Source: Comamonadaceae bacterium
Lineage (GTDB): Bacteria > Pseudomonadota > Gammaproteobacteria > Burkholderiales > Burkholderiaceae_C
NCBI GenBank assembly: GCA_027486255.1
Contig: JAIXPL010000050.1
Span: 1 to 64,000 of the forward strand
Direction of reading: 5' to 3'
Length of the DNA: 64,000 nucleotides
In this document: piece by piece, positions 18,707-21,564 of the stretch
Position numbering within the stretch: position 1 is the stretch's first letter
Layout of the letters: every line of letters begins with the position of its first letter
Notes under the pieces: model-generated
The model's database searches: none
The model's input: only the letters and a program-made list of their open reading frames with translations
What the model was told of the DNA's origin: nothing
Translations under genes and position numbers: made by a program

Positions 18707-19444
18707 TTGACCTCCCCCGGCCGCTTCCTCGCCTTTGACACCAGCACCGACCGCCTGTCGGTGGGCGTGGCCGTGGGTGGTCGCCAATGGCTTCACGAAG
18801 GGCCGGGCGCGGCGCAGGCTTCGGCCACGCTGATCCCGGTGGCCCTGGACCTGCTGGCCCAAGCGGGCCTGGCGCTGCACGAACTCGACGCCATCGTCTT
18901 CGGGCGCGGCCCCGGCTCGTTCACCGGCCTGCGCACGGCCTGTGCTGTGGCCCAGGGCCTGGCCGCAGGCGCTGGGCGGCTGGTGCTGCCCGTGGACACG
19001 CTGCTGGCTGTCGCCGAGGAAGCCGCGCACCAACAGGCCGCAAGCGGCCAGGCCGTGCCTGAGCACCTGAGCGCCCTGCTCGATGCCCGCATGGACGAGG
19101 TGTACGCCCAGGACTTCAAGCGCAGCGCGGCCGGCTGGCAGGCCCTGGGCCCGTGCCGGCTGCTGGCGCCTGAGCAGCTGCACTTTCCCGAGGGTGGCCA
19201 CCGGCTGCTCGCCGGCAATGTCTTTGAGGTCTACGCCGCTCGCCTGCCCACCTTGCCTGCAGGCGAGGTGGTGGTGCCAGCCCTGCCCACGGCGGCGGCC
19301 CTGCTGCGCCTGGCACCTGCGCTCATGGCCCAGGGCCTGGCCGTGCCCGCCGAGCAGGCCCTGCCCCTGTATGTGCGTGACAAGGTGGCGCAGACCACGC
19401 AAGAGCGGCTGGCAGCCAAGGCCGCTGCCACCAAGGCAGATTAA
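18707..19444 (+). CDS. tsaB: tRNA threonylcarbamoyladenosine biosynthesis protein TsaB
   Basis: ASKHA-fold partner of TsaD and TsaE in t6A tRNA modification. The 245-residue product begins with FLAFDTSTDRLSV and has the GRGPGSFTGLR segment diagnostic of TsaB. The start is TTG: the conserved strand sits only six residues in and no ATG or GTG is available before it. rimI follows after three bases, the usual tsaB-rimI pairing. tsaC lies about 3 kb away in a different operon. Confidence 0.93.
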   Translation: MTSPGRFLAFDTSTDRLSVGVAVGGRQWLHEGPGAAQASATLIPVALDLLAQAGLALHELDAIVFGRGPGSFTGLRTACAVAQGLAAGAGRLVLPVDTLLAVAEEAAHQQAASGQAVPEHLSALLDARMDEVYAQDFKRSAAGWQALGPCRLLAPEQLHFPEGGHRLLAGNVFEVYAARLPTLPAGEVVVPALPTAAALLRLAPALMAQGLAVPAEQALPLYVRDKVAQTTQERLAAKAAATKAD

Positions 19445-19447
19445 GGC

Positions 19448-19963
19448 ATGAGCGCCGTGCCCCGCCCCAGCCCTGAGCAGGTGCCTGGCCACGCGTCTGC
19501 CCAGCTGGCGCCCATGACCGAGGCCTGGCTGGACGAAGTGGCCGCGCTTGAAAAAACAGCCTACACCCACCCCTGGTCGCGCGGTAATTTCTCGGACTCC
19601 CTGCGCGCCGGCTACCGCGCGAGCGTGTTGCTGCAGGGGGAGGAGCTCCTGGGCTACTTCGTGCTCATGAAGGGCCTGGACGAGACCCACCTGCTCAACA
19701 TCACGGTGGCCCCTGCCCACCAGGGCCAGGGCCATGCCCAGCACATGCTCGATGCGCTGGCGGCCTGGTCGGTGCGGCAGGGCGCACAATGGCTGTGGCT
19801 GGAAGTGCGCATCAGCAATGTCCGCGCCCGCCGCATCTACGAACGCTACGGATTCAAGGAAGTCGGCGTGCGCCGCAACTACTACCCTCTGGCCCCCTTC
19901 AAGCGCGAAGACGCTGTCGTCATGAGCCTGTCCCTGGCCACGGCCGAGGAGCCGCTGTCATGA
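19448..19963 (+). CDS. rimI: Ribosomal-protein-S18-alanine N-acetyltransferase
   Basis: GNAT acetyltransferase that acetylates the N-terminal alanine of ribosomal protein S18. The 171-residue product has EKTAYTHPWSRGNF near the start, the acetyl-CoA loop HQGQGHAQHML, and WLEVRISNVRARRIYERYGF, all typical of RimI. About 20 extra residues precede the domain. It sits directly after tsaB, and its stop overlaps the next gene by four bases (ATGA). Confidence 0.92.
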   Translation: MSAVPRPSPEQVPGHASAQLAPMTEAWLDEVAALEKTAYTHPWSRGNFSDSLRAGYRASVLLQGEELLGYFVLMKGLDETHLLNITVAPAHQGQGHAQHMLDALAAWSVRQGAQWLWLEVRISNVRARRIYERYGFKEVGVRRNYYPLAPFKREDAVVMSLSLATAEEPLS

Positions 19964-20703
19964 GCCTGGAGCTCGACAAACGCCAGCGCGCCATGCTGCG
20001 GGAGATGGGCGTGCAAGTCTGGTCACCCCTGTCCCCGGCCCCGGCAGACCCTATCTCCGCAGCCACCCCGGCATCGGCCTCCAAATCGCCCCCCACGCCC
20101 CCGACATCGACCCCCGCAGCGACAACGCAGCCAGCAGCGGCGTCACGCGCCCCTGTGGCCAGGCCATCGCCAGCACCGGCACCGGCAAGCTCACCGGCAG
20201 AGCCCCCCGCCGGTGCGAGCTGGCGCGTGGATGCCGCCCAGCTGTTCGCCGGCGAAGGCGATGCCGCGGCCGAGCGCGGGCCGCGCTGGCTGCTCTTGGC
20301 CGAGGGTCGCCCAGAGGAGCTGGCCGAAGGCGCCGGCGAACTGCTCAAAAACATGCTGCGCGCAGCGAGGCTGGCCGAAGGTGCACAGGTGTGGCTGGCC
20401 CCCCTGCAGCGCAGCGCCGGCCCAGCGGACGTACAGGGCTTGGACGAGGTGCTGGGGCACACCCAGCCCGACTTGGTCTTTCTCATGAGCCGGCTGGGCG
20501 CACAGGCCCTGCTGGAAACCGATGAGCCCCTGGGCCGGCTGCGTGGCCAGGTGCACGATCTCTGGGGCCTGCCCGCCGTGGTGAGCTACGACCTGGGCAC
20601 CCTGCTGCGCACCCCCACCGAAAAGGCCAAGGCCTGGGACGACCTGTGCCTGGCCCTGCAGGTGGCCCGCACCCAGCACGCCGAACGGCTGGCGGCCGAA
20701 TAA
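19960..20703 (+). CDS. Degenerate family-4 UDG-like protein; candidate DNA polymerase III psi-like subunit
   Basis: A 247-residue protein with three parts. The N-terminal helix (KRQRAMLREMGVQVW) is followed by a long Pro/Ala/Ser-rich linker (about residues 25-85), then a domain of about 160 residues. That domain resembles family-4 uracil-DNA glycosylases in outline: AEGAGELLKNMLRAA matches the usual QAGKLLDNML region and LLRTPTEKAKAWDDL matches the C-terminal HPSxLLR region. The Fe-S cysteines, the GEAPG motif and the catalytic histidine are gone; one cysteine remains. The N-terminus and the NPTAR..W-like end also recall E. coli HolD, whose gene adjoins rimI. Function is unproven. Confidence 0.55.
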   Translation: MSLELDKRQRAMLREMGVQVWSPLSPAPADPISAATPASASKSPPTPPTSTPAATTQPAAASRAPVARPSPAPAPASSPAEPPAGASWRVDAAQLFAGEGDAAAERGPRWLLLAEGRPEELAEGAGELLKNMLRAARLAEGAQVWLAPLQRSAGPADVQGLDEVLGHTQPDLVFLMSRLGAQALLETDEPLGRLRGQVHDLWGLPAVVSYDLGTLLRTPTEKAKAWDDLCLALQVARTQHAERLAAE

Positions 20704-20739: not shown

Positions 20740-21564
20740 ATGACTTTTCTCGCCATGCTGGCCGCCGCCGAGCGCCAGAATCGATCCATGCTCTGCGTGG
20801 GCCTGGACCCGGAGCCCAAACGCTTTCCGGGTCGCCTGCAGGGCGACGCCAACAAGATTTACGACTTCTGCGCCGCCATCGTGGACGCCACGGCCGACCT
20901 GGTGTCGAGCTTCAAGCCGCAGATTGCCTATTTCGCGGCACACCGCGCCGAAGGTCAGCTCGAGCGCCTGATGGAACACATGCGGCGCGTGGCTCCGCAG
21001 GTGCCCATCATCCTGGACGCCAAGCGCGGCGACATTGGCTCCACCGCCGAGCAGTATGCGCGCGAGGCCTTCGAGCGCTACGGCGCCGATGCGGTGACGC
21101 TTTCGCCCTTCATGGGCTGGGACTCGGTGGAGCCCTACCTGAAGTACGAGGGCAAGGGCGCCTTCCTGCTGTGCCGCACCTCCAACCCCGGCGGCGACGA
21201 CCTGCAGAACCAGCGCCTGGCCAGCGTCGAAGGCCAGCCCCTTCTGTATGAACACGTGGCCCGCCTGGCGCAAGGCCCCTGGAATCTCAACGGCCAGCTC
21301 GGTCTGGTGGTGGGGGCGACCTATCCGAACGAAATAGAGCGCGTGCGGCAGGTGGCGCCGCAGGTACCGCTGCTGATCCCGGGCGTGGGCGCCCAGGGTG
21401 GCGATGCCGTGGCCACGGTCAAGGCCGGCTGGCGCGCAGACGGAACCATCATCGTGAACTCCTCGCGGGCCATCCTCTATGCGTCCAGCGGCGAAGACTT
21501 TGCCCAGGCCGCGCGCCAGGTGGCGCAGCAAACACGCGACACCCTGGAAGCGGCCAAGGCCTGA
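20740..21564 (+). CDS. pyrF: Orotidine 5'-phosphate decarboxylase (type 2)
   Basis: Last step of UMP synthesis. The 274-residue product is the longer PyrF subtype: [12 protein letters not shown] near the N-terminus, the catalytic [17 protein letters not shown] segment (the DAKRxD motif) and the phosphate-binding loops GVGAQGGD and NSSRAILYA. It starts 36 bases after the preceding gene; the short gap holds a TACAAT that could be a -10 element. Confidence 0.95.

Follow-up and report, generated by a model that had tools for sequence, protein, structure and literature searches.

A 64,000-nucleotide stretch of the genome of a Comamonadaceae bacterium (contig JAIXPL010000050.1; we call this stretch the window) contains a gene just downstream of rimI whose product recalls two different proteins: the psi subunit of DNA polymerase III (HolD), and a family-4 uracil-DNA glycosylase (UDG4) that has lost its catalytic residues. 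Which of these is it? The initial annotation, which was made from the letters alone, offered a divergent HolD or a dead glycosylase. We found support for both, and they appear to be the same thing, as the homology to HolD spans residues 6–232, including the glycosylase-like domain. It is very probable that this gene is the bacterium's holD, and that it encodes a psi subunit, derived from a dead UDG4, that links chi and SSB to the clamp loader. The features of the locus are:

18707..19444, + strand: tsaB-like gene, 5' of rimI (TsaD-family Pfam match)
19448..19963, + strand: rimI, ribosomal protein S18-alanine acetyltransferase, a conserved neighbor of holD or UDG4-psi genes (TIGR01575, 112.8 bits)
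19960..20703, + strand: candidate holD, psi on a catalytically dead UDG4 fold, 247 amino acids (HolD profile, hhalign, Foldseek)
19966..20025, + strand: putative psi-type N-terminal clamp-loader-binding peptide (by homology), residues 3–22, LELDKRQRAMLREMGVQVWS (PF03603, HMM of HolD N-peptides)
20026..20217, + strand: Pro/Ala-rich linker, residues 23–86 (sequence; low model confidence)
20218..20700, + strand: UDG4-fold / HolD core domain, residues 87–247 (hhalign, Foldseek)
20299..20313, + strand: remnant of UDG motif A, AEGRP for GEAPG, residues 114–118 (family alignment)
20587..20610, + strand: remnant of UDG motif B, YDLGTLLR for YHPAYLLR, residues 210–217 (catalytic His to Asp)
20620..20646, + strand: C-terminal helix EKAKAWDDL, common to UDG4 and HolD (E. 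coli ARAALWQQI) (hhalign)

The reading frame runs from an ATG at 19960 to a stop codon at 20701–20703. Its start lies within the stop codon of rimI, which gives a 4-base overlap. The next ORF downstream begins at 20740 and reads as a putative pyrF. The initial annotation also pointed out that holD adjoins rimI in E. coli; it does, but in E. coli holD is upstream of rimI instead of downstream. From its N-terminus, the protein consists of a helix (LELDKRQRAMLREMGVQVW), a Pro/Ala linker that ends near residue 86, and a domain of some 160 residues. In the AlphaFold model (48-row alignment, mean pLDDT of 77.8), a helix is predicted at residues 7–15, and 10-residue blocks of the linker have mean pLDDT values of 54–74.

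The similarity to HolD begins at the N-terminus. PF03603 (DNA_III_psi) matches residues 7–26 at E = 0.053; its score of 14.2 bits is under Pfam's cut-off of 22.2 bits, which is a detection threshold and not a biological feature. An HMM of HolD N-peptides matches the protein at E = 1.3e-4, while none of 146 control ORFs had E < 0.5. The initial annotation likened the helix LREMGVQVW to E. coli HolD, and these two matches bear this out; the E. coli motifs that it gave (QLGITQW and an N-P-T-A..W end, which reads NPTARAALW) are correct as well. For the full length, we used a profile (A2) of 16 gammaproteobacterial HolDs, namely E. coli's and 15 PF03603-positive genes. Among the 1080 ORFs of the window, A2 matched only this one (residues 6–232, E = 3.4e-11). 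The match persists if the bridging sequence L085 is left out of the profile (E = 2.6e-9) or if the profile is made from nine short HolDs (E = 1.9e-5), and hhalign aligns the core domain to the HolD core with E = 3.9e-10.

Across the whole genome, the sole matches of A2 are two segments of this same ORF (E = 2.4e-5 and 4.1e-4). PF03603 found no holD in the genome, which suggests that the curated model is too narrow. Thus, neither search found a second holD, although the genome is 89.9% complete, so the lack of another psi is not certain. A few other matches of the protein were set aside: PF02602 (HEM4, E = 0.033) was sub-threshold, the library matches to GltJ and DnaX-tau were sub-threshold and reflect linker composition, and the phmmer match to the designed protein 7ue2 was treated as chance. 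Phage records queried with the psi peptide gave no match.

The similarity to UDG4 is in the core domain. TIGR00758 (UDG family 4) matches residues 161–230 with E = 1e-4 and 22 bits, as compared to a cut-off of 125.3 bits, and hhalign aligns the core to intact UDG4 relatives with E = 8.6e-38. When we searched with the AlphaFold model using Foldseek, the best matches were structures of UdgX and UDG4 (E = 5e-8 to 3e-5, with UdgX at 5e-8 and 1ui0 at 2e-7). All of the significant matches were UDGs, and no psi structure was among the 50 best. Structure prediction had been suggested as a check against both HolD and UDG4, and only the UDG4 side of it came out positive. In an alignment with 171 other family members, the protein has none of the four Fe-S cysteines, motif A is lost (AEGRP instead of the expected GE[AG]PG), and motif B has DLG instead of HP[AS], so that HP has become DL and the catalytic histidine is gone. 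The description of a UDG4 outline without Fe-S cysteines, GEAPG, or catalytic histidine was therefore accurate. The glutamate of motif A and the LLR..K..AW..DL tail are kept, including the LLR and W positions that are nearly invariant across the family. The protein has presumably lost its glycosylase activity. The same genome encodes another member of the UDG superfamily (PF03167) elsewhere.

Homologs of this gene are present in 175 of 200 genomes of the order, and most of these homologs are complete family-4 UDGs, with C..C.L, GE[AG]PG, KCRPP, and HPAYLLR. With start codons picked by rule, the intact homologs begin with a psi-like peptide, such as MNTRRKIILRELGLTPLWRLR in L048 (the N-terminus of E. 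coli HolD is MTSRRDWQLQQLGITQWSLRRP), followed by a linker. Within the order, they lie directly 3' of rimI, mostly with a 4-base overlap like that of the window gene. Named relatives with a homolog include Hydrogenophaga, Ramlibacter, Variovorax, Rhodoferax, and Polaromonas, and also in Cupriavidus, Paraburkholderia, Ralstonia, and Nitrosomonas. In γ-Proteobacteria other than the betas (for example, Woeseiaceae, Thioalkalivibrio, and Methylococcaceae), the intact gene is 5' of rimI, as in the holD-rimI arrangement of E. coli. Altogether, rimI is on the same strand in 106 of 110 loci (78 with rimI first and 28 with the psi-type gene first). Intact beta and gamma orthologs (L048, L123, L144, and L164) exceed the cut-off of TIGR00758, and the intact relatives would be active glycosylases. 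Judging by these motifs, the gene family is a general one, with an intact UDG in most β- and γ-Proteobacteria, which the initial annotation did not foresee.

Some members of the family carry insertions. In a betaproteobacterium (G132; L070:239-2053, − strand), the UDG4-psi gene contains a LAGLIDADG intein within the UDG domain, just 5' of the conserved cysteine of CRPP (PF14890 at 39.9 bits, PF03161, and TIGR01443). In G129 (L007:757-2187, + strand), the frame reads through an IS200-like Y1 transposase domain (PF01797, E = 4e-7) located in the Pro/Ala linker, with the psi peptide on one side and the UDG domain on the other. In seven other genomes (G083, G061, G098, G077, G038, G138, and G334), the family match has one internal stop codon in frame; these could reflect either pseudogenes or frame errors made by the search.

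Are HolD and UDG4 themselves homologous? Aligning the HolD core (16 sequences with the N-peptide removed) to intact beta UDG4s with hhalign gave a probability of 97.7 and E = 2.4e-12 over 100 columns. The best E value from 100 column-shuffled controls was 0.1, and the reversed profile gave 0.61. Without L085, the comparison gave E = 2.8e-11, and six short HolDs by themselves gave 2.1e-6. The alignment covers an LLxxxLxA helix that follows motif A, the strand that precedes LG, and a further strand together with the motif-B segment and its KxxxW helix. The N-peptides of HolD and UDG4-psi alone align with E = 5.9e-9 (the best of 200 shuffles was 7e-4), and the full alignment A2 matches A1, the alignment of UDG4-psi, with E = 5.1e-17. 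Also, the HolD profile without L085 matches 177 of the 179 collected family members with E < 1e-3.

Two natural sequences are intermediates between UDG4-psi and HolD. L088 is above both curated Pfam cut-offs, with 117 bits for the UDG family PF03167 and 23.4 bits for PF03603 (cut-off 22.2 bits). L085 is a psi according to Pfam, yet it keeps the UDG scaffold (PRLIVIMGEYPAQVLL...RMHSL...PVIVTHALSSIE..DKRRAWQDI). From these comparisons, E. coli-type HolD would be the same protein as UDG4-psi in a more reduced form.

To examine the distribution of the family, we used 369 gammaproteobacterial genomes (in the GTDB sense, so the betas are included). PF03603 was found in just 16 of these genomes, while A1 was found in 294. 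Most of the A1 matches across the class start at the first few positions of the profile, so UDG4 with a psi peptide is the common form in the class. A2 matches 307 of the genomes, mostly in the UDG4 genes. Plain HolD and A1 exclude each other: A1 is found in none of the 14 genomes with plain HolD, which span eight families, and in 294 of the 355 others (P = 7e-11, Fisher exact test, ignoring phylogeny). The remaining two PF03603 genomes are those of the intermediates, where one gene is counted by both profiles. Chi (PF04364) is present in 311 of the 369 genomes, and 287 have both chi and a psi-type protein (odds ratio 4.6, P = 7e-5, again ignoring phylogeny). There are exceptions in both directions: chi was not detected in 42 genomes with a psi-type match, and 24 genomes with chi had no psi-type match.

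Outside of the class, the A1 matches of alpha-type UDG4s mostly begin around position 20–60, and their N-termini do not score for the psi peptide, so we limit our claim to the Gammaproteobacteria (including the betas). UDG4s from other proteobacterial classes (L201–L212 and L216–L218; alpha-type and zeta-like, as judged from sequence) do start with a short helix, followed by a long linker, and are not linked to rimI. The helix reads LLxxYxxxGVDxA, or YLREIGVQTPVSL in family f242, which is probably zeta-like and whose N-terminus resembles the psi peptide. The N-terminal helix of the non-gamma UDG4s is possibly an older tethering peptide. Because these proteins share the helix and the linker, the original partner of the peptide could be something else.

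The window gene is not alone in having lost its catalytic residues. A clade that includes Ramlibacter paludis, Variovorax, and Xenophilus shows the same loss, and separate losses, partial or whole, are seen in families f43, f42, and f19. In the phylogenetic tree, four changes between intact and degenerate labels are needed, and at least three of these are forced by well-supported branches. Three or more losses of the catalytic residues have thus occurred in the β-Proteobacteria, with the psi peptide kept: the peptide is recognizable in all of the degenerate lineages, and is least clear in f42 and f43. The clade that contains the window gene is fast-evolving, with long branches. Between pairs of degenerate genes of the Variovorax/Xenophilus type, dN/dS is about 0.3–0.55. 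The two f43 genes (L022:1495-2247 and L047:1698-2510) keep all four Fe-S cysteines and have an aspartate instead of the motif-B histidine (TLDMGALLR and THDLGGILR), which is the same substitution as in the window protein. By its residues, f43 seems to be an intermediate stage of the loss.

If the window protein is a psi subunit, its partners should be present. In the genome, the gene for chi is next to a pepA-like gene, the arrangement seen in E. coli. Both F64 and R128 of E. coli chi are conserved in this chi; F64 is required for psi and YoaA (PMC9826845), and R128 for SSB. In E. coli, the N-terminus of psi binds domain III of DnaX, the core of psi binds chi, and chi binds SSB (PMC3290774, PMC12871192, PMC13213242). 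The psi N-peptide is a separate chain in solved structures (3gli_O), and this chain sits bound to the clamp loader (PMC13213242). Since the window protein is homologous to E. coli psi, it should bind the same partners, with a longer tether. The N-terminal 20-odd residues would dock on the collar of DnaX (domain III), as in E. coli psi, and the flexible Pro/Ala linker would hold the UDG-fold domain (residues 87–247), which is expected to bind chi (HolC). Chi would in turn bind the tail of SSB, so that the clamp loader is tied to the SSB-coated template of the lagging strand. The domain itself would derive from a family-4 UDG whose ability to excise uracil disappeared along with the Fe-S cluster. 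In most β-Proteobacteria and other γ-Proteobacteria, the UDG4 domain that follows this peptide in the ortholog is still intact, and the same geometry would place a uracil glycosylase at the clamp loader.

An alternative is that the window protein is a dead UDG with another role, such as a sensor that binds uracil or single-stranded DNA and is docked elsewhere by its N-terminal helix. In favor of this idea, the fold and all of the best structural matches are those of UDG4 and UdgX, and UDG4s of the alpha and zeta types likewise have a helix at the N-terminus and a linker, away from rimI. However, the peptide matches HolD specifically, HolD and UDG4-psi are syntenic and mutually exclusive, the HolD profile matches this gene alone in the genome, and chi retains F64 and R128. 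We consider another role to be unlikely.

We also considered that the protein is still a glycosylase, with altered chemistry and no Fe-S cluster, or that the gene is a decaying pseudogene that persists because it overlaps rimI. An active enzyme is very unlikely: the protein keeps the motif-A glutamate, LLR, and a core that can fold, but the four cysteines, GEAPG, and the motif-B histidine are all lost, the clade is evolving rapidly, and the genome has another PF03167 UDG. Decay would account for the missing catalytic residues and the long branches. Against this, the frame is open, the N-peptide and the C-terminal helix are conserved among independently degenerate relatives, the dN/dS among related degenerate genes (~0.3–0.55) is as given above, and the genome has no other match to psi, which makes a pseudogene scarcely credible. 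Based on the family alignment and dN/dS, we rejected both of these ideas, and we return to psi.

Compared to known proteins, the window protein shares with E. coli HolD (PF03603, TIGR00664; PDB 1EM8, 3SXU, and 3GLI) the N-peptide, a core with a C-terminal (K/R)..(A)W..(L/I) helix, the rimI neighbor, and chi in the genome. E. coli HolD has only 137 amino acids, while the window protein has 247 and adds the long Pro/Ala linker and a nearly full UDG fold. By its description, HolD from Pseudomonas aeruginosa (PA4679) is similar: it is also a divergent psi, about twice as long as E. coli's, with an extended and flexible N-terminal part, and it too is missed by ordinary homology search. It was discovered only through purification, and its extra sequence binds single-stranded DNA (PMC3197488, PMC8879598). 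Family-4 UDGs (TIGR00758; 1ui0 from Thermus and 4zbx from Sulfolobus) share the fold and the C-terminal motif with the window protein, but they have the Fe-S cysteines, motif A, and motif-B histidine that it lacks. The solved UDG4s do not have the psi peptide (the profile match begins at position 57 or later). UdgX from M. smegmatis, the best Foldseek match, has a fold related to UDG4; it is a uracil-DNA cross-linking enzyme whose active site is present, unlike that of the window protein.

Psi has been viewed as limited to some γ-Proteobacteria, with chi widespread, and one suggestion was that psi might have become too divergent to be detected (Robinson et al. 2012, PMC3290774). Some genomes have a conserved psi-binding site on chi but no psi that can be found (PMC3197488). 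In the open-access papers that our search covered, we found no report that joins psi, HolD, HolC, DnaX, or the clamp loader to a uracil-DNA glycosylase; this does not prove priority.

We think it likely that psi is a family-4 UDG by origin: most Gammaproteobacteria would tether an apparently intact glycosylase beside SSB, where it could scan the replication fork for uracil, and E. coli psi and the window protein would be independent reductions that kept the scaffold for chi and DnaX. This would give psi an evolutionary origin, and would name the missing psi gene in most genomes of the class, where it is scored as a uracil-DNA glycosylase. A further prediction is that base-excision repair of uracil is physically and directly linked to the clamp loader. 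The more surprising consequence is that, in the intact relatives, a glycosylase would be held at the clamp loader.
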